Both the position numbers and the translations under genes were made by a program. 64,000 bases of DNA, from IMG/VR virus record IMGVR_UViG_3300010375_000019, positions 1 to 64,000 of that record, one strand, 5' to 3'. Below, in pieces: positions 20,605 through 32,268 of this stretch. The notes under the pieces were generated by a model. That model saw only the letters and a list, made by a program, of their open reading frames with translations, searched no databases and was not told where the DNA came from. Numbering within the stretch: the first letter of the stretch is position 1; each line of letters starts with the position of its first letter. The DNA comes from a virus.

Positions 20605-23025
20605 TCACGCCCTCACTTGAACCTTGCTTCCCTCTTTTTTCGACTGCGCCAAGATATTCGCCTTGGTCAAGTCCCCTTTCACTTTCATCTCCGTCTGCAA
20701 CAGTGCAAGGTATGTCTGGTTTTCCTCTGCGGTCAGTTCCATCCCTTTGGTAAGTTTTGCCAGCATCATGTCGATCACACCTTTTTCCCTAATTACTGCT
20801 ATCTCGGATTCAGTGTCGATGTTCTTTTTCTCTTTGTACGATTGCAAATCCAAAAACATGCTTTTCTGTTTCTCCTGCTCGAGTGCAACCGCGGTCTGGG
20901 TGTTGCCTTGTGCCTGCGCGTTCATCTTCTCTATTTCCATCTGCTGCAACTCAGCCTCGCGTTGTCTTCTCTTTTGGGCGAGCAGTTGGTATGCCCTCCA
21001 AATGTTCTTTTCGTTCTCGATCAGGAACGCGTCCTCAGGCAATAATACCCCTCCGTTGGTCTTCAACGAAGCCACCACATAATCGTGCAGGTTGGCCCTC
21101 ATCTCCTCGGTGATACCTGCGTCTATACTGATGGCAAGATCCATCAACGCAAGACGTTTGGTATCGATAAAGAACGCATGTGAATCGCTCCCCAATGCCA
21201 ATTCCTTGCCCTTGCTGCGTCCCATCATTTCGGCATCTGGCACCAATAAAGCCACACGTCTAGCGGTGTTCTCATAAATATTTATGAACCCGTGGTACAT
21301 GTCGCCAAGGGCATTATCACTGTTGGCAACCGCTGTCTCGGCAACGAACTTACCTGTCTTTGTAGGCGGCAGGCTGCTGTCTGTGACTTCGTTCAATCCG
21401 ATGATCCCGCGCATGATGTCTATGTCACGGATGATGAAGTCAAGATGCTGAACTGCCGCCTCAGAGATACCGCCCTTGATGTTCTCCAATGGCTTATAAG
21501 GATAAGGCCTTCCGTTCGGGTCTGTTCCCACGTACACGAACGAACCTGTCTCCGCGTACATCTGGAGCAAATCCTGCATCTTGAACTTCTTATTGCCTAT
21601 CTCCACCATACCTAAGGCGCGTCTTTCGATCGCTAGTCCATCGGGTTTTGATTTGGCGATGTGGTGCTGGTATTGCAGCCAGTTCACCTGTATGTTGTCC
21701 AGCAAAGGCTCGCACTGCCTCATGATGCTGTCGAAGTCCATGGTGTACATGGTGGAACTCAGCATGCAGTCGTTGATGCTGCCAACGGCACGGATCATGT
21801 TGGACTTGCGTCCGTAGTTGAAAATGTAGTCCGTGTCGCAGATCCACTCAGCCCCGTACACGTTATTGACGGTATCACGGATGATGGTCCTTTCCTCTCC
21901 TTTGGTGGCATAGAAAGTCTGGTATTCGGCATCGGTCAGACCTTTTTTGTTGAGCCATTGCGGGTTGTCACGTTTCTGGAAGGTGGTGTTCCCTTTGCTG
22001 TTCTTGGTCTTCACGTAGGCGATGTCGTCCGCTGAATACCATTCAGCATCCAGTATCGTAACTTTTTCGTGGTCCCAAGGGTAGCGGTTCCAAGTAAGGA
22101 AATAACTCTGTGCCCCGATTGCGGTGTAATCGCGTCCGCTGGTCTTCGAGGCGATCTTTGCCAGGTCCTCATCGGTGAAAGTACCTGCCGGCACGCTGGC
22201 CCTCAATTCCGACAAAGTAACCTGACGGTAATCCCCTATCCTGTTTAGGTCGGAAAAATCGTTGTTGATGCAGCTGTTGCAGATCGTCTGTTCCGGAATC
22301 CTGCGCCTGATGCGTATGCGTCCGATCTGGTCTATGAAAATCTTTGTTGAGGCGATACCAACTTCTATCAGGTCATCAAGAATCTGGTCCTCCAACTGCT
22401 TCCAGTCGCTCTGCAAAAAGGCCATGTCCACCTGGTCCTGCATGTACATAACGTATTTGTTCTTGGGGTACATGTCCTGGTACATCTTGATCTGGTCGGT
22501 ATTCTCAGGCGTTGGTTGCCCTTTTTCGAAAGGCACCTGCGGTTTGTAGCCATGCACGTTCTTGGCCACGCTTTCGTGGAAGTCCCTGTTCACGAGCCAT
22601 TCGGTGATCGTTGCGCGTTGGTCCTCGATCTCCTTCGCAGAGGTCTGGTCGATCGCCGAAATAACAATCTCACGGGGGATCTTCTTCAGGCGGTTCTTGA
22701 TGACCTTCTTGAAACGAGGGAAAACGGCAAGTATATTCCAGTCAAGGTTGCGCCAGCTCATGTCCTTCTTGCCGTGGCGCTTGCGTGTCCCTAGCAAATC
22801 CTTGTACTGATCGATCGGCTGTTTGCCACGTGCGTACATGCGCCATTCCTGATATTGTTGATACGCCCAGCGGAGTATCTGGGAATTGCCCGTGGTGTAC
22901 TCGCGGTTGAACGCCTTCATGTATTGCAAGCACCACTTTTTGTCCTTTTTCTCGGGCGGTACCTGATGTGACGGGTAGCCGAAATTCATAGGTTCCTGCT
23001 TGAACGCTTGGTTTTCTGTTGCCAT
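20605..23025 (-). CDS. Portal protein, 806 aa
   Basis: The dodecameric ring at the packaging vertex. Identified by size, its place directly after the terminase (1-base gap) and characteristic segments: MSWRNLDWNILAVFPRFKKV near 95-115, a body with WDHEKVTILDAEWYSADD, and a long helical C-terminus (LLAQKRRQREAELQQMEIEK) that would form the barrel. The length matches the large portals of crAss-like podoviruses. No fused protease or other domain is seen. Confidence 0.85.
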   Translation of the reverse strand: MATENQAFKQEPMNFGYPSHQVPPEKKDKKWCLQYMKAFNREYTTGNSQILRWAYQQYQEWRMYARGKQPIDQYKDLLGTRKRHGKKDMSWRNLDWNILAVFPRFKKVIKNRLKKIPREIVISAIDQTSAKEIEDQRATITEWLVNRDFHESVAKNVHGYKPQVPFEKGQPTPENTDQIKMYQDMYPKNKYVMYMQDQVDMAFLQSDWKQLEDQILDDLIEVGIASTKIFIDQIGRIRIRRRIPEQTICNSCINNDFSDLNRIGDYRQVTLSELRASVPAGTFTDEDLAKIASKTSGRDYTAIGAQSYFLTWNRYPWDHEKVTILDAEWYSADDIAYVKTKNSKGNTTFQKRDNPQWLNKKGLTDAEYQTFYATKGEERTIIRDTVNNVYGAEWICDTDYIFNYGRKSNMIRAVGSINDCMLSSTMYTMDFDSIMRQCEPLLDNIQVNWLQYQHHIAKSKPDGLAIERRALGMVEIGNKKFKMQDLLQMYAETGSFVYVGTDPNGRPYPYKPLENIKGGISEAAVQHLDFIIRDIDIMRGIIGLNEVTDSSLPPTKTGKFVAETAVANSDNALGDMYHGFINIYENTARRVALLVPDAEMMGRSKGKELALGSDSHAFFIDTKRLALMDLAISIDAGITEEMRANLHDYVVASLKTNGGVLLPEDAFLIENEKNIWRAYQLLAQKRRQREAELQQMEIEKMNAQAQGNTQTAVALEQEKQKSMFLDLQSYKEKKNIDTESEIAVIREKGVIDMMLAKLTKGMELTAEENQTYLALLQTEMKVKGDLTKANILAQSKKEGSKVQVRA

Positions 23026-23026
23026 T

Positions 23027-25282
23027 TTATGCGGTTTTTGACCAAATCTTAGACCTGTTTCCGCTCTGGTCGAATTGCGGAAACACTTCGTTTATATCGA
23101 ACGAATCCTCTTTCTGTTCCACCCTGACATTTGCCTGGGACGCTAGTATCGTGAAGCCTGCCGCGGTCACTGCATCGAACTTGGTGCGGTCCTTCGCCTG
23201 ATAGCCGATCATCTGCTTTATCAAGGCTGGGAACGGTATCCTGTGTCCGTTGTGCTCCACGAAACTAACCAATTGCTGTAAGTAGGCGTTGACCGTCTCG
23301 TCCGCGTTGTAGAGCCCTTTGTAGGAGTCGTCACGCGATGTCTGTTTGATGATCGTTTCATCGAAATCGCCCTTGTAAAGGAAGAACTGACCGTAATTCC
23401 TGCTGTTGAGGTACTGGTTCAAAGTCTGCACGTTGTCCTCTGCGCAAATGCTGCATCCGAAGTATCGCATCGCCTTAATCATGTCCTCTCCGAAGACACT
23501 GAAATCGTTAGGGCGATAGAGGTATTCCCCACAGAAATTGTTCGTCTTCCAGTTTTTCTTCTGCACGTTGAGATCTATAGCCGGGTTGTACATCTCCCAC
23601 ACGTATGCCCCCGCCTTGGAGAACCTGGGGTCATCGGTGCGTGTCAGGCGTATCGGGTCAGCGCCCATTCGGAAATATTTGTTGTTGAGCGGGTACCACA
23701 GTTTCTTGCTGTCGTAAAATTCATGCGACACGCGATTGCTCTCGCGCTTGTCGCCCTCCACTTTCATCACTCCTTCCTTGTCAAGTAGTTTGGTGAGTGC
23801 CCAGCGCCCCGCAAGGTCATCCCTTACAAACTCCACAAGACCGTCCTCATGGTCCACCCATTCGAAATTGCCTTTGATAAATGGATAACTCTGCGATCCT
23901 TCCAGAAAATCCAACCGTTTTTGAAGGATCATCACATTGAAAGGGCTCGCCTGGGAGGTCATCATCTTGGCCTCGTCCCATGAAAGGGGGTATTTTCTTA
24001 TCTGTTGGGCGAGAAGCTGGTAGTTATGTCTAAAAGGCTCCCTGTCCTGCAAAATACGTGTCTTTGCTCCTATGAAAACACGCTGTCCGTCCTCACCTAT
24101 CACCACTTCATCGGGCTTTGGATCATCCACCACTGAGCGTCCATATTCATCGAACACGTAACCTTCAGCTGCGGAAATGAACAACGAAAGCAGATTGGAG
24201 GTGGTCTTGCCATTGGCGTTCTTTTTCATCAACGATGGTCTTCCGTGCTCGAACATCTCGATGAAGTTCTCACCACCACGCTCGAGTTCCTCTATTGTCG
24301 TAGGCGCGAAAATGAAGCCTATTTTCTGGTAGTTGTCACGTGTGGATGGGATCAGAATGCGCAATGTCTCATAAACATCAGCCTCCACCCATTTACCTGG
24401 TTCCTCCATGGAATAGTCATGGAGCTTGTACCCATCATAACTGGTGGGTTTGGTCTCCCTGAAATCTATCTTGCAGTTGAGCGTGTCGTCATCTTCCTGA
24501 TCCTCCTCGATCTGGGACTTTCCTTTGGCGACAGGTTTTTTGAAGAGCATCTCGTTCTTGTGGGTCGAATTATAGTCATGCACAGGCTTGAAGAAATCAG
24601 GTTGGTTCCTCCACCCCAAAATGAAACTTTCCTCGAACTTGTCGCTGGCATCGTTTCTGGTCTGCGCCTGCATTCCTGCCCTTCGGTTTTTCTTGAAACT
24701 CTGTTCATACCACAGATTGTGCATTGAAATGCTGGTTTTCCCCCTTCTGCGGTTTGTGCTTAATGAAACACCATGTACAAGGTCATGGTCTTTGGCGTAT
24801 TGTATGGAATAAAATTCCTTCCGTAAAGTCAGTCTCAATTTGGGATAACCAAAATCCTGATACCACCAGTTGACGAAATCGTAAAACTGGCCCGTGATGT
24901 ACACATATTCGGTCGGCTGGTTGTTGCGGTTGCCTATGGCCACCCACAAACCGTTGATCTTTCGCTTCCATTCCTGTGTTCGGAATTCATTGCATTTGGG
25001 GTGCACATAAGAAGGATCAATTTTTTGCTGGGTGGTTTCTTCCTTCCTCCATTTTTTCCACTCAGGCGGGATCGGTGTGCGGTGCCATTTCTGGTCCTCG
25101 ATGGCCAAATGCTCGTTGAGTATCTCGCAGCGGACAAGTTCGTATGACGGCCTTCCTGTCTCAAGGTCTGGCACTCGATCTATGGTGAAACCCAACGGTG
25201 GAAGATGCACTTCAATGGTCTCATCGTCCCATTGGATGGGGAACATGCTGCCTCCTGGTATGGGGTTGCAAATGGTGTGCAT
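23027..25282 (-). CDS. Terminase large subunit, 751 aa
   Basis: The packaging motor ATPase and nuclease. A deviant Walker A (STNRRRGKTS) lies near residue 175-184, and a P-loop ATPase coupling region follows. The C-terminal nuclease half starts near 555 with YFRMGADPIRLTRTDDPRFS and AYVWEMYNPAIDL, then EYLYRPNDFSVFGEDMIKAM, whose acidic residues could bind the metals. I start at 25282, where TAATG overlaps the upstream stop, instead of a longer start at 25324. Size and the portal next door support the call. Confidence 0.87.
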   Translation of the reverse strand: MHTICNPIPGGSMFPIQWDDETIEVHLPPLGFTIDRVPDLETGRPSYELVRCEILNEHLAIEDQKWHRTPIPPEWKKWRKEETTQQKIDPSYVHPKCNEFRTQEWKRKINGLWVAIGNRNNQPTEYVYITGQFYDFVNWWYQDFGYPKLRLTLRKEFYSIQYAKDHDLVHGVSLSTNRRRGKTSISMHNLWYEQSFKKNRRAGMQAQTRNDASDKFEESFILGWRNQPDFFKPVHDYNSTHKNEMLFKKPVAKGKSQIEEDQEDDDTLNCKIDFRETKPTSYDGYKLHDYSMEEPGKWVEADVYETLRILIPSTRDNYQKIGFIFAPTTIEELERGGENFIEMFEHGRPSLMKKNANGKTTSNLLSLFISAAEGYVFDEYGRSVVDDPKPDEVVIGEDGQRVFIGAKTRILQDREPFRHNYQLLAQQIRKYPLSWDEAKMMTSQASPFNVMILQKRLDFLEGSQSYPFIKGNFEWVDHEDGLVEFVRDDLAGRWALTKLLDKEGVMKVEGDKRESNRVSHEFYDSKKLWYPLNNKYFRMGADPIRLTRTDDPRFSKAGAYVWEMYNPAIDLNVQKKNWKTNNFCGEYLYRPNDFSVFGEDMIKAMRYFGCSICAEDNVQTLNQYLNSRNYGQFFLYKGDFDETIIKQTSRDDSYKGLYNADETVNAYLQQLVSFVEHNGHRIPFPALIKQMIGYQAKDRTKFDAVTAAGFTILASQANVRVEQKEDSFDINEVFPQFDQSGNRSKIWSKTA

Positions 25283-25683
25283 TATGATCCGTAATCGATT
25301 ATGACCAGCCTTCCGTTGAGCCATCCAAAACTATCAGCCTTCCATTCACATGGCATAGGAGGCATTCTGTCCTCTTCCACACCATCCAACCATACATAAT
25401 ACGCAATGGATTCCTTTAATTCTAAAAACTCCTTTTGTGTCAGCACTTTCACGCGAGGCATCACAACTATGAACCTTCCAAAGCATGTCCAGTAGATGGG
25501 GCATAGTTTTTTTGTCCATTGAAACGATCTTCCCCACTGTACTTCCTGATCGTTGCCCAAAAGCCCTTTCAGGAACAATAGCCATGAATAAAAACTGGGG
25601 AATTTGATGGCATAACTGCCGATCAAAAGCACCCATCTGGTAGTTCCTGTTTTTATCAATTGCATTTTCGTTCGTAAAAGCAC
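25282..25683 (-). CDS. Small protein with degenerate kinase-like pattern, 133 aa
   Basis: Unassigned. TGTTRWVLLIGSYAIKFPS resembles a kinase glycine-loop strand and its Lys, and WLNGRLVIIDYGS at the C-terminus resembles the strand-DYG metal site of kinase-like proteins. The middle catalytic loop is missing at this length. It lies between the putative small terminase block and the terminase. This could be chance similarity or a phage family of reduced kinase fold. Confidence 0.6.
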   Translation of the reverse strand: MLLRTKMQLIKTGTTRWVLLIGSYAIKFPSFYSWLLFLKGLLGNDQEVQWGRSFQWTKKLCPIYWTCFGRFIVVMPRVKVLTQKEFLELKESIAYYVWLDGVEEDRMPPMPCEWKADSFGWLNGRLVIIDYGS

Positions 25684-25862: not shown

Positions 25863-26485
25863 CTGGCTTTTTTCACGCCTGCGAAGTTTTCAGGACTTAA
25901 AAATCTTGACTTTATCGCAATCTCTTTTACGTCATCGTTGTCACCGAAAATCTCTTTCTCTATGGCATCGATGAGTTTGTGTATGCTGCTGGCCTGATCG
26001 CGCAAAGTGCCCTTCTTTTTGGCGGCCTCGAACATGTCCACTTCATCGACCTCACTGTCCTTGTCCTTTTTGTTGCTCTTGGTGGTGATAGGTTCCAATC
26101 TCAGGCGGTTGTTCTCCTCTAGTTCCTGTTGCAATACCTGCCACTCGGTGTATTTCCTGTTGTGGTAGACCTGCGTCAAAAAGCATTGCAGGAAATCCAG
26201 TGCCGTCTTGTCCCTGAGTTCGAAGATGTCCTTTAGGTATGCGCTTTCGTGCTGGAAACCTGCAAGTTCGGCTGCACGTATTTTCCTTCTGGCAAGTTCC
26301 GTTATCTCTTTCAGCAGGTCGCTTTGCGGATCGTACATGAATATCATGTACCGCAGCAATAAATTCTTGAATGGAGCCTTTGAGTTGACCAGCACTTTAT
26401 GTCTTTGCAATTCGGGATACTCTTCCAGCACATCCTTTTCAGGCGGCATGTCGAATATCCTGAACTTTAGTTTCTGGAAATTCAT
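25859..26485 (-). CDS. Possible terminase small subunit, 208 aa
   Basis: Start taken at 26485 (MNFQKLKFRIFDMPPEKD), overlapping the GroES-like gene stop by ATGA. The protein is helical and charged (LLKEITELARRKIRAAELAG), with a Lys/Asp-rich linker and a C-terminal helix pair. It lies upstream of terminase and portal where small terminases are often found, and its composition fits, but I see no diagnostic motif. The call is positional. Confidence 0.5.
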   Translation of the reverse strand: MNFQKLKFRIFDMPPEKDVLEEYPELQRHKVLVNSKAPFKNLLLRYMIFMYDPQSDLLKEITELARRKIRAAELAGFQHESAYLKDIFELRDKTALDFLQCFLTQVYHNRKYTEWQVLQQELEENNRLRLEPITTKSNKKDKDSEVDEVDMFEAAKKKGTLRDQASSIHKLIDAIEKEIFGDNDDVKEIAIKSRFLSPENFAGVKKAS

Positions 26486-26736
26486 TGGATTGCGATGATG
26501 TGGTGCGGTTTTATGATGAGCATTTTTTTGCCTTCGAACTCGATCATGTTGTCCTGCCACGTGTTGAACAGTATTTCTTCACCTTCTGAAACTATCGCAT
26601 CTGGACCGCACTTAACGGTAATGCCTTTCATTGTTTCCTTATGTCTGCGCCTGAACATTGGCGGAACGAACACCTGTCCATCTTTTTCCGTCAGCGGTTC
26701 AACAAAAATATTGTCGTAGGTTGGTTTTATTCCCAT
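26482..26736 (-). CDS. GroES-like co-chaperonin, 84 aa (copy 1)
   Basis: Starts MGIKPTYDNIFVEPLTEKDG and ends IEFEGKKMLIIKPHHIIAIQ, following the GroES order IKP..D...V.P, a mobile-loop region, G..V..GPDA, V.EGEEILF, and a closing strand. It would cap GroEL and help fold a phage protein, as gp31 does for T4. I reject the longer start at 26811 because it crosses the promoter. It begins the terminase-portal operon. Confidence 0.85.
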   Translation of the reverse strand: MGIKPTYDNIFVEPLTEKDGQVFVPPMFRRRHKETMKGITVKCGPDAIVSEGEEILFNTWQDNMIEFEGKKMLIIKPHHIIAIQ

Positions 26737-26748
26737 TTTGAAAAAGTC

Positions 26749-26790
26749 ATTCCAAAAATAGACAAATTCCATAAAATAGACATACATTTG
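26749..26790. promoter_or_regulatory. Divergent promoter region with tandem 17 bp repeats
   Basis: Two adjacent copies of ATTCCAnAAATAGACA (26749-26765 and 26766-26782) lie between the GroES-like gene (minus) and the 203 aa gene (plus). A plus-strand TACATTTG at 26783-26790 and a minus-strand TATTTTTG at 26760-26753 fit TAnnTTTG -7 boxes. The repeats likely bind a regulator or form a phage-specific promoter element. Confidence 0.6.
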
Positions 26791-26809
26791 GTTAGTAAAT
26801 CCAAAAACC

Positions 26810-27421
26810 ATGGCTTACGGAAACTATTCCCAAGGTGTCTTCAAGAGAAAGGACACGTCCATCAACAGATTGGCTTCAGCTGTCAAGAGTGCCACTGGTG
26901 GTAATACGATCAAACTGCCAAACGGAAAAAAAGCCGTTAAATATCCACCTGTGCAAGGAAACATGAACAGGGTCACCGACCAACCACGCATCAAAGTGCA
27001 GGATTTTGACACAGGCCGAAAGACCAATAAACTACAGACAACTCCTACTTCAACGGACTCAGGCGCTATCGTAACAAAGCAGAAGGACAACACCGTACCT
27101 GCAAAGACAGCCGTGAAGTTCACACCAAAAGTTAACGCACCTGCAAAAGCGGTACAGACCACCAGAGGCACATCTAAATCACCAAACGATATGAATTACG
27201 CAACAGAGACAGGAAAGAAAGTTGACGGGACAGGCAAACCACAGAACCATGTAGGCATCGGTGGTCCAGCCGGAAGCAAAAAAGTGGCATTTGCCACCAT
27301 GAAGAAAGGAAAGACGATGCCATCAAAAAAACCAAAGGTGACAGGTGTCACTGAGGTCGCCCAAAAGAACAACAATGTTGCGGGGGCAAATTCATACGGC
27401 TATCGCAAATTGAAAAAATAA
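26810..27421 (+). CDS. Basic low-complexity protein, 203 aa
   Basis: Lys/Thr/Asn/Gly/Pro-rich throughout (KLPNGKKAVKYPPVQGNMNR, TKQKDNTVPAKTAVKF), few hydrophobic residues, probably disordered. Such proteins can be DNA-bound virion components. It overlaps the next gene by one base and is transcribed away from the terminase operon. Confidence 0.7.
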   Translation: MAYGNYSQGVFKRKDTSINRLASAVKSATGGNTIKLPNGKKAVKYPPVQGNMNRVTDQPRIKVQDFDTGRKTNKLQTTPTSTDSGAIVTKQKDNTVPAKTAVKFTPKVNAPAKAVQTTRGTSKSPNDMNYATETGKKVDGTGKPQNHVGIGGPAGSKKVAFATMKKGKTMPSKKPKVTGVTEVAQKNNNVAGANSYGYRKLKK

Positions 27422-28230: not shown

Positions 28231-29061
28231 TTATTGGATTTGTTCCTCTAAAACCTTGCAAACTATCTGATCCTGCCTTAGCACGAAATAACTTTTGTTT
28301 TCGATGCGTATCAAACTTTTCATGTTCGGTTTGAAAAGTATTTTGTCGCCTTTCGAAAGATAGCATTTTTCTCCTTTCAAAGGACTTCCAATTTCTGCCA
28401 CTATTCCTTGCTTATCCTTTTTCGAAGGAGCTGTCTTTATCTGCAACCATTGTTCCTTTGGGCGCGGGATTAAATTCCCCTGCTTGTCCTTGATGTCGTA
28501 ATAGGTAGGCCTTAAAATGCTGTCCCATGACTCCATCACCGGGTCGATGAGCACGTGGCTGCCGACCATGATTATTTTACTGTCACGTATTGCACAATAG
28601 ATGTTATCGTAGGACACACGGAATATCCAAGTCGGTGGATCTATGCTCTGTGCCACCAGGTTCTTGTGGTTGAAGGTGACACGCCACTTGAAATATATGC
28701 GGTCGCCCAATTGAACCTCTTGTTCTATGTCAGACATCATCTTGTAGTTGTAGATGCCACCGATGGGTGAATAAAGTTCAGGGATGTTTTCGTCCATGTC
28801 CTCGTTGAACATTTCCCTTGCCATTCCGTACGCTGGATAACCAACTGGCAGCTGTGAAATAGGTGCATTGCCCATGAAGAACGGTAATTGGATTACTTCC
28901 CCATCGATACGTGCGCGTTTTTCCTTTTGGAATGTGGCATCAATGGTTATCTCCTGTCCATTGACTCCTTTTTTGCCTGAGTTGGTGTCGAACAGGTTGC
29001 CCTTGATTTTGATGAGCACGTATCCGGAACCGCCTTTTTTGTAGTTGAGGAAGTTCATCAA
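28231..29061 (-). CDS. Two-domain protein with C-terminal GroES-like fold, 276 aa (copy 2)
   Basis: The C-terminal ~70 residues read KQGIVAEIGSPLKGEKCYLS, KGDKILFKPNMKSLIRIENK, SYFVLRQDQIVCKVLEE, which follows the GroES order G.V...G, .GD.ILF, I.I....Y.VL....I...L. The first 200 residues are an unassigned beta-rich domain (YVLIKIKGNLFDTNSGKKG, DPPTWIFRVSYDNIYCAIRD). A fused co-chaperonin-like domain is unusual. It overlaps the SSB-like gene by ATGA. Confidence 0.7.
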   Translation of the reverse strand: MMNFLNYKKGGSGYVLIKIKGNLFDTNSGKKGVNGQEITIDATFQKEKRARIDGEVIQLPFFMGNAPISQLPVGYPAYGMAREMFNEDMDENIPELYSPIGGIYNYKMMSDIEQEVQLGDRIYFKWRVTFNHKNLVAQSIDPPTWIFRVSYDNIYCAIRDSKIIMVGSHVLIDPVMESWDSILRPTYYDIKDKQGNLIPRPKEQWLQIKTAPSKKDKQGIVAEIGSPLKGEKCYLSKGDKILFKPNMKSLIRIENKSYFVLRQDQIVCKVLEEQIQ

Positions 29062-29414
29062 AATGGGGTGTCATCGTTTGATGTACTCTCAGGCGCGTTG
29101 CTAACAGCCGACTCTTGGTTCCCAGGTTGCCATTTCCTTTTCTGCTGCGAGTCCCATTCCAGTTTATGGGTTCTAATTTCTGTGTACCACCTACCGTTGT
29201 ATTCTCGGCTTTCGATGTTGATGTGCGCGGTCAATTCCAATCCTATTTCCAGATCGTATTTGTTGATCGCTTCTTCGCCCCACAATGAAATGCAGATTTT
29301 GCGTGGGTATTGGTCTTTTGTCTCGATAATAAATTCTTGCTTGCTCCATTGGCCTTTTTTGCCTTGGCCTGTTACTATGGGAAGCAATTGGATTACTTTT
29401 CCGCTTACGTTCAT
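29058..29414 (-). CDS. DUF3127 / SSB-like protein, 118 aa
   Basis: An OB-fold type protein of Bacteroidota: MNVSGKVIQLLPIVTGQGKK, QEFIIETKDQYPRKICISLW, then RHIGW-like strand ELTAHINIESREYNGRWYTE. It has a disordered tail ending NDDTPF, close to the DDxIPF tip of bacterial SSB that binds partner proteins. It would coat single-stranded phage DNA and recruit replication and recombination enzymes. Confidence 0.8.
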   Translation of the reverse strand: MNVSGKVIQLLPIVTGQGKKGQWSKQEFIIETKDQYPRKICISLWGEEAINKYDLEIGLELTAHINIESREYNGRWYTEIRTHKLEWDSQQKRKWQPGNQESAVSNAPESTSNDDTPF

Positions 29415-29632: not shown

Positions 29633-29844
29633 AAGAGCGTTCGGTTTTTCAATTAATGGGGATGCCAATCTTTCAGGTCATCCCCATCTGGTCAATTTTA
29701 CCTCTCGCTCTTTAGGCGTATGGAGGTTATCATCTTGGGGCTGCTTGGTGCAATTTATCCATCTAATGTTCTGGTGCAAAATGTGCAAAAACACCTGAAC
29801 TGGAATTACCAACCTTTATAGCGCAGCCCCTTTCTTCGGGTTTG

Positions 29845-30187
29845 TGGAGCCGATGGGAATCGAACCCATGTCCAGCTAGCAAAGCGATAAACAATTTGTA
29901 CAGGTTTTTGAGGCTGACTTTTTAGGCCAGTTCCACCATCAGGATTTTAAAGTTCCTGAAAACTTATAGTTGGCCTTCCAAAGCGAACATTTTAAAGTCT
30001 ATACGCTTATTGACTTTGTCGATTAGGCCGCCTTGCGGAGACCCACGAAAATACCCTCTCCTTGAGAGAACATCTTCACAACTTTTGAGTTGTCGATTGT
30101 TGTTGCATGTGTATTTTAAGGTTCTCACCATGCTTTGAACCACCTGATCGTTTACTATTACGCTCCTTGTCAATACCGAGCGGCCCC
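29845..30187 (-). ncRNA. ssrA: Transfer-messenger RNA (tmRNA)
   Basis: Rescues stalled ribosomes by acting first as tRNA then as mRNA. The 5' end GGGGCCG pairs with CGGCTCC at the 3' end (with the usual G-U), followed by the D-arm-like GGTATTGACAAGG. The 3' end has the canonical T arm GGACATGGGTTCGATTCCCA. A P2 helix forms between CAAAGC (offset 51-56) and GCTTTG near offset 303. CCA is not encoded. Length 343 suits a tmRNA. The best tag frame (30061 to 30023) reads GEGIFVGLRKAA then UAA, like the Bacteroidota GE..[FY]ALAA tags. An alternative frame near the centre gives FKMFALEGQL. Confidence 0.82.
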
Positions 30188-31540: not shown

Positions 31541-31687
31541 TTAATCGATTTGTTCTTCAGGTAACACTACTATTTCACAACACGATTTCACTTCTTCATA
31601 GGTAAGACCAGTGACATCCATTACTATGTCAATAGGTGTCAATCCTTCTGGTTCATCTCCAATGAATCCTACAACAAATTCGTCCAT
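31541..31687 (-). CDS. Short acidic protein, 48 aa
   Basis: Found by translating the gap: MDEFVVGFIGDEPEGLTPID to VVLPEEQID. It starts inside the vWA stop (TGATG) and stops 2 bases before the next start, so it is very likely translated. Unknown function. Confidence 0.6.
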   Translation of the reverse strand: MDEFVVGFIGDEPEGLTPIDIVMDVTGLTYEEVKSCCEIVVLPEEQID

Positions 31688-32268
31688 CAGATGCACACAT
31701 TCAGTTTAGCCATCTCATCGTGCAGCGATCCGTAATCGGTCTCAAGGTAGCAGTCGCTGGATATGTCCTTCATGAAATCAGGTCTTGGTGTATTGTCGAG
31801 TATGAGCACTGAGCATATTTTTATACCGTTGTTCTTGATGCTTTTGGCGATCATCAAACAAAGCATGTCATGGTCAACGGCCCCGTCAGACACAACGATC
31901 ATCATTCTTTTGGCGTTGCGCCTGATGTTGCTTGAGAACTGGTCAAGTGCCGTGTTGAAAGCCTCCTCCATGTATGTGTTGCCTGCCGTCCTTTGCGTTG
32001 CGATGCTATCGGAGCACCTGATTAGTTTTTTCTTGTCGGATGTGAGTGCACAGTTAGTCCTTGCACCGCTGTTGAACGTAACGATGCCCATCCTAATGCC
32101 GTCATCGGATAGTTCGTATTTGTTTATGAACTCGGAGAACGCTTGGGCCATCTGTTTCTGGTTTCCGTCCACCGATGGGGACATGTCGCCTATGAGTAAT
32201 AAGTCTACTTTTAGACATTGGGGCGTTGAGTTCATCAAGAAGATCAAAGCCAGTGCTATGGTTTTCAT
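31687..32268 (-). CDS. Secreted von Willebrand factor A domain protein, 193 aa
   Basis: The N-terminal signal peptide (MKTIALALIFLMNSTPQC; the Cys suggests a possible lipoprotein) is followed by one vWA domain. The metal-ion-dependent adhesion site is complete: DMSPS (DxSxS) near residue 29, TAGNTYMEEAF with the Thr, and VVSDGAVDHD with the Asp. The domain would sit outside the cytoplasmic membrane and bind a protein ligand. A phage-encoded secreted vWA protein could block receptors or secretion, or modify lysis; the role is open. Confidence 0.82.
   Translation of the reverse strand: MKTIALALIFLMNSTPQCLKVDLLLIGDMSPSVDGNQKQMAQAFSEFINKYELSDDGIRMGIVTFNSGARTNCALTSDKKKLIRCSDSIATQRTAGNTYMEEAFNTALDQFSSNIRRNAKRMMIVVSDGAVDHDMLCLMIAKSIKNNGIKICSVLILDNTPRPDFMKDISSDCYLETDYGSLHDEMAKLNVCI

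Follow-up and report, generated by a model that had tools for sequence, protein, structure and literature searches.

Although phage-encoded tmRNAs are known, they have received little study, and the usual assumption is that their tags are ordinary degrons. The locus described here lies within a 64,000-nucleotide stretch of a virus record (hereafter the window), and the question that it raises is whether the phage codes for a functional tmRNA of its own and what its unusual tag would mean for the proteins that receive it.

Identification of the tmRNA gene

ARAGORN identifies a one-piece tmRNA gene (ssrA) of 344 nt at positions 29844 to 30187 on the minus strand, to which all the window features located below belong unless stated otherwise. 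The tmRNA covariance model, named by the first-pass annotation as the check on its proposal of a phage-encoded tmRNA, matches this gene from end to end (Rfam RF00023, model positions 1 to 374) with 71.3 bits and an E value of 9.4e-26, above the gathering cut-off of 47 bits; together with the ARAGORN call and the phage nature of the record, this match bears the proposal out. It is the only tmRNA in the whole virus record of 68,332 bases, and ARAGORN finds no other tRNA-like gene in the window. A two-piece (permuted) organization was also considered and is ruled out by ARAGORN and Rfam, both of which return a standard one-piece gene.

The acceptor stem, T arm, and P2 helix had been described as directly visible, and direct reading and the Rfam alignment agree on the first two. 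In the acceptor stem, GGGGCCG (30181 to 30187) pairs with CGGCUCC (29846 to 29852) in seven of seven positions, including G3.U70, the identity pair for alanine, and the T arm AUGGG-UUCGAUU-CCCAU (29853 to 29869) forms five of five pairs. There is no anticodon arm beside this alanine-type acceptor stem and T arm, and the CCA end is not encoded. The long P2 helix has 14 pairs in the MFE fold, between GUAAACGAUCAGGU (30142 to 30155) and ACCUG-UACAA-AUUGUUUAU (29887 to 29905), and comparison with phage and host tmRNAs places the latter strand closer to the phage-family CUGUAUAAAUUGUAU than to the host AUGUAGAAAGC. The fold of the whole RNA is more stable than those of its shuffles (z = -2.8). No promoter-like match was found near the gene in a scan for the sigma-70 type.

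A tmRNA typically has several pseudoknots, usually four. Pseudoknot 1 (30105 to 30141) can be read directly as GGUUC/GAACC crossing GCAUG/CAUGC, and a knot with two 5-pair stems arises in 4% of the shuffles of this stretch. Past the tag, a possible second pseudoknot seen by eye (AAAGUC/GACUUU crossing AAGCG/CGCUU, 29981 to 30017) is not significant alone, as some 5+5 knot appears in 9% of the shuffles of the same positions, and further on comparison reveals a hairpin (UCAGGA/UCCUGA, 29932 to 29959) followed by UGGUGGA that is common to the phage tmRNA family. The suggestion that the pseudoknots were rearranged holds, with a short post-tag part and a tag frame that is itself folded into three hairpins.

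Phage context

The record is a relative of the Flavobacterium and Cellulophaga podoviruses. Its terminase large subunit (TerL, 23027 to 25324; phrog_6681, E value of 2e-63, with tblastn matches to Flavobacterium and Cellulophaga phages) is about 23 to 26% identical to those of Flavobacterium elemo-, Cellulophaga (Pachyviridae and Pervagoviridae), Tenacibaculum, and Maribacter phages, and the GroES-TerL-portal order is common to most of these TerL relatives. The portal protein (20605 to 23025; phrog_6547, E value of 3e-53) and further structural genes of the window also match phage families. Because the related phages infect Bacteroidota, the host is probably a member of this phylum as well. 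A single-protein TerL search of IMG/VR found no close relative.

The tmRNA has as its neighbor a gene for a single-strand DNA-binding protein (29058 to 29414), assigned by a DUF3127 domain match. Between TerL and the tmRNA, two separate Cpn10/GroES-like proteins (26482 to 26811 and 28231 to 29061, both on the minus strand) lie on either side of a short pair of plus-strand genes, and a von Willebrand factor A domain protein (31687 to 32268, minus strand) is found upstream of it. The Cellulophaga phages phi38:1 and Calle have about a dozen to twenty tRNA genes plus a tRNA ligase, whereas the window has no tRNA genes.

Tag reading frame

The open frame called by ARAGORN (30023 to 30094) starts at the resume codon GAC (30094), 10 nt past pseudoknot 1, and runs for 23 codons to the stop UAA (30023 to 30025). 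The encoded peptide is DNSKVVKMFSQGEGIFVGLRKAA, which ends in Arg-Lys-Ala-Ala, so the gene has the open tag frame, the resume codon shortly past pseudoknot 1, and the stop of a tmRNA. An open frame ending in Ala-Ala-stop, in any frame, arises by chance in about 0.3% of cases in shuffles and genomic controls. As this ending is rare and a homologous frame is kept in a second phage (see below), we consider that the frame is, from its sequence, now settled as the 23-codon GAC frame. The first-pass annotation had chosen this same frame but not its full length, its GEGIFVGLRKAA being the last 12 of the 23 residues. The alternative tag that it offered, FKMFALEGQL, finds no support, since it sits 3' of the stop codon and in a different frame.

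Conservation of the tag in a distant phage

We scanned IMG/VR for VGLRKAA followed by a stop, and four contigs matched, in one of which (3300048672_001411) the match lies within a tmRNA (RF00023, 63.8 bits). ARAGORN misreads the tag frame of this contig, in which the homologous frame is DDCKVVPMFAQGAGMSVGLRKAA followed by a stop. The two tags agree at 16 of 23 residues and, at the nucleotide level, at 54 of 72 positions, counts to be read knowing that this is the one homologous tag found and that its VGLRKAA end was the search pattern, so that the last residues do not count as independent support. The first 16 residues are outside the pattern, and their score is reached in none of 20,000 shuffles. 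The 18 nucleotide changes fall 4, 4, and 10 times at codon positions 1, 2, and 3, respectively, and of 20,000 random placements of these changes, 38 leave the frame intact and preserve as many residues. The other frames of the contig carry stops across the tag region. Of the two stems of pseudoknot 1, the second is identical to that of the window and the first is different (GCAG/CUGC).

The TerL of this contig is 24% identical to that of the window, and the tag has therefore been preserved over a long separation; a near-identical tag in such a distantly related virus argues that the window tag is under selection and no accident. The description of the tag as unusual was well founded, as it has 23 residues and an Arg-Lys-Ala-Ala end that is also kept in the distant phage. 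Patterns specific to the window matched no relative and gave one chance protein match, and the phages collection contained no tmRNA similar beyond the end of the T arm and no similar tag.

A folded tag frame

The tag frames of the window and of the contig have three back-to-back hairpins in common, with z values of -4.05 and -3.83, respectively. In the window, hairpin A (ACAACU/AGUUGU, 30078 to 30093) stands directly at the resume codon, hairpin B (30047 to 30077) has 14 pairs, a CUCUC-AAG-GAGAG tip, and four compensatory pairs relative to the contig, and hairpin C (30024 to 30045) contains the last tag codons, all three being supported by the fold and by the alignment of both sequences. In this alignment 96% of the cells are paired and 4 of 28 pairs are changed on both sides, and sliding the partner sequence along it lowers the pairing to 39 to 48%, in a comparison that involves two sequences and a structure derived from one of them. 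A z value at or below -3.8 over equal length is seen in 1 of 31 host tmRNAs and in 0 of the 77 ANM phage tags (described below) among the matches listed. As hairpins, compensatory pairs, and residues are all conserved, the tag frame appears to be constrained both as RNA and as peptide, and we regard the gene, its frame, and this double conservation as demonstrated at the level of sequence. It is unusual for a tag frame to be spanned by three strong hairpins, with one at the resume codon, and this arrangement could impede translation.

A folded frame that includes the resume codon would also suit a decoy, whose tRNA-like domain binds SmpB and AlaRS while the frame stays untranslated and host trans-translation is blocked; expression in E. 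coli of the tmRNA of mycobacteriophage DS6A, which is made up only of the tRNA-like domain, was reported to inhibit tmRNA (PMC4131195, PMC11915505). However, a decoy needs no open frame, and here the frame is open with the 0.3% Ala-Ala-stop ending, is kept at the amino acid level in contig 3300048672_001411 next to frames with stops, and retains both pseudoknot 1 and the spacing of the resume codon. This conservation of the frame weakens the decoy explanation, which we consider quite improbable.

Comparison with host tags

A strong tmRNA was found in 179 of 198 Bacteroidia genomes. The host tags called by ARAGORN (n = 32) nearly all have 8 to 10 residues, are of the GENNYALAA kind, and end in A-(L/M)-A-A, with ANENSYAAAA, GNYSYSVAA, and one 16-residue call as exceptions, and none of them has Lys or Arg before Ala-Ala. 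With its 23 residues and R-K-A-A end, the window tag does not belong to this host type. The first-pass annotation saw correctly that it is longer than these tags and has Arg-Lys before the final alanines; its resemblance to host Bacteroidota tags extends only to an Asp/Gly-Asn-type start and the final Ala-Ala.

E. coli ClpX makes its key contacts with the two terminal alanines and the carboxylate, and mutating the residue before Ala-Ala increases the KM of ClpXP modestly (PMC7652416). As these contacts are kept and the preceding residue is changed, ClpXP would be expected to recognize the RKAA end less well, but still to recognize it.

Long-tag tmRNAs in other Bacteroidota phages

One of the TerL relatives (G033) has a tmRNA with the tag core NAQIEANM. 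A degenerate scan for this core found 55 stretches in viral contigs, all in the tag frame, and 12 in 84,980 genomes of bacteria and archaea, of which none was within a tmRNA. Another scan, directed at a conserved motif upstream, led to a set of at least 77 distinct tags. These long tags have 24 to 49 residues and start with Gly or Asp at the host resume-codon position. Among the matches listed, 73 of 77 end in Ala-Ala, and the core Q..ANM..V (Q-x-x-A-N-M-x-x-V) has its Q in 77 of 77 and its A, N, M, and V in 76 to 77 of 77, encoded by a variety of synonymous codons. To judge from these codons and residues, the core is conserved as a peptide, and the set is, as far as searched, private to phages.

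Isolates with these tmRNAs include phi38:1, Calle, FpV4/FPSV (FPSV-S29), and Cellulophaga phage phi14:2 (Crassvirales), to which many IMG/VR contigs are added. In FpV4, a phage of F. psychrophilum, and its relatives the gene is unannotated (L173:2500-2915, tag GNTNNSVVSLEDNAQVEANMNMAFSLIREDVAVAA), and for many of the long-tag tmRNAs ARAGORN gives only the end of the tag, misframes it, or misses the gene. Full-text searches of openly licensed PMC papers found no description of long phage tags, and the set is apparently undescribed. In some of its members the T loop is apparently interrupted, with a group I intron (RF00028, 92 to 96 bits) directly downstream of the interrupted T arm (L116:3998-4221, L117:2766-2989, and L158:3280-3538, all on the minus strand).

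The published tmRNA of Maribacter phage Panino (L021:7558-7890) overlaps genes for tRNA-Asp and tRNA-Thr, is found only as a permuted tmRNA, and is probably an ARAGORN false positive. Chryseobacterium phage MA9V-3 and crAss-like Suoliviridae have permuted two-piece tmRNAs with tags of 13 to 17 residues, such as GNFYVTDYTRIAA and GNVIDINKYVAKLEVAA, unlike the Bacteroidia genomes examined, where ARAGORN calls standard one-piece tmRNAs only.

We also considered the window tag as an ANM-family tag that has lost 13 residues, but its profile score of -0.7 is no better than those of shuffles and the pairwise comparison gives a p of ~0.17. On present evidence, the window tmRNA is not a member of the Q..ANM..V set, and we would class it as an RKAA-type phage tmRNA of its own, found so far in two phages. 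The 3' halves of both scored higher with a phage-tmRNA profile than with a host profile (36.9 versus 24.2 bits for the window and 35.9 versus 20.4 bits for contig 3300048672_001411), and in a tmRNA tree, arbitrarily rooted, the window falls on the branch between the host and phage groups. Since tmRNA genes commonly serve as integration sites and the 5' end of the window tmRNA resembles those of host tmRNAs, a host gene picked up recently, as an integration-site relic or as cargo and without selection in the phage, has to be weighed. Such an origin is very improbable, given the phage-like 3' half, a tag that is unlike the 32 host tags and has its closest counterpart in another phage, and the lack of an integrase among the ORFs scanned.

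With regard to partner proteins, SmpB was found in none of 20 records searched and the window phage has none, and in the phages searched there was no SspB and no ClpP above the cut-off, with one sub-threshold match. The long-tag tmRNAs have no universal neighbor gene, the best one being present at 32 of 147 loci. These absences bear on whether the window tag could be a hand-off signal instead of a degron, in which case rescue would work and its products would meet another fate, being slowly turned over, sequestered, or recognized by some factor of the phage or the host that reads the long tag. That the RKAA end is kept in two distant phages, while 0 of 77 long phage tags among the matches listed have K or R within the last four residues, would agree with a special role, as would the modest KM effect of the residue before Ala-Ala (PMC7652416). 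Nevertheless, the main ClpX contacts, Ala-Ala and the free carboxylate, are kept and neither a phage SspB or ClpP nor a constant neighbor gene accompanies these tags, and we consider a hand-off signal unlikely. A wider idea, which we offer only tentatively, is that Bacteroidota phages possess tmRNA lineages of their own, in which long conserved tags divert the rescued polypeptides or recruit a factor and a folded, dual-coding frame governs the manner or timing of tag synthesis.

Proposed function

Judged from its sequence features, the window gene is likely to be a functional phage tmRNA that uses host SmpB and EF-Tu and adds a 23-codon tag from GAC to rescue ribosomes. In the infected, probably Bacteroidota, cell, we infer that this tmRNA would be charged with alanine via the kept G3.U70 and, accompanied by EF-Tu and SmpB, would enter ribosomes that have stalled on broken messages; if the tmRNA is functional, the SmpB must come from the host, as the phage has none. 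Translation would then switch to the 23-codon frame at GAC, and at UAA the ribosome would be set free, with Ala-DNSKVVKMFSQGEGIFVGLRKAA now attached to the abandoned protein. The phage would most likely benefit by not running short of ribosomes at a time when messages are being cut in the infected cell. With the Ala-Ala core of the ClpXP degron kept and Lys in place of Leu or Met before it, the tagged products would probably be degraded more slowly or need something else for their degradation. Both roles initially suggested for the gene, a replacement of host rescue or an altered handling of tagged proteins, are plausible.

We can conclude that the window contains a real phage tmRNA with a genuinely unusual conserved tag, and that the long-tag phage tmRNAs are the broader lead. 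Distant phages preserve the window tag at both the peptide and the RNA level, and it departs from host tags at the residue right beside the Ala-Ala that contacts ClpX. The long-tag set includes culturable isolates (phi38:1, Calle, FpV4, and phi14:2), so that the benefit of a phage having its own rescue tag can be tested, and tags of this kind are truncated or misframed by standard callers.

Comparison with known tmRNAs

The window tmRNA shares with Bacteroidia ssrA (RF00023) the acceptor stem with G3.U70, the T arm, P2, pseudoknot 1, a resume codon about 10 nt on, and the final Ala-Ala, but it differs in its long tag, the Lys before Ala-Ala, a tag frame that is wholly folded, the reduced pseudoknots after the tag, and its location in a phage that has no SmpB. 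Like the long-tag tmRNAs, it is phage encoded and in one piece, with a long tag and a 3' half containing UGGUGGA and CUGUAxAAAUUGU, although the Q..ANM..V core is missing from its tag. The tmRNA of contig 3300048672_001411 is alike in the 23-residue tag, the three in-frame hairpins, the position of the resume codon, and the TerL superfamily of its phage, and differs in about half of the remaining tmRNA, including P1 and the first stem of pseudoknot 1. The phage tmRNAs in the literature are those of Bacillus phage G, of the mycobacteriophages Bxz1, Catera, Wildcat, and DS6A, and of Melnitz. The tag of phage G is called as AKLNITNNELQVA, and the Melnitz tmRNA is a two-piece, riboswitch-linked one (PMC9004378). 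All of them resemble the window tmRNA in being encoded by phages and presumably involved in ribosome rescue, while their hosts, tags, and architectures are different.
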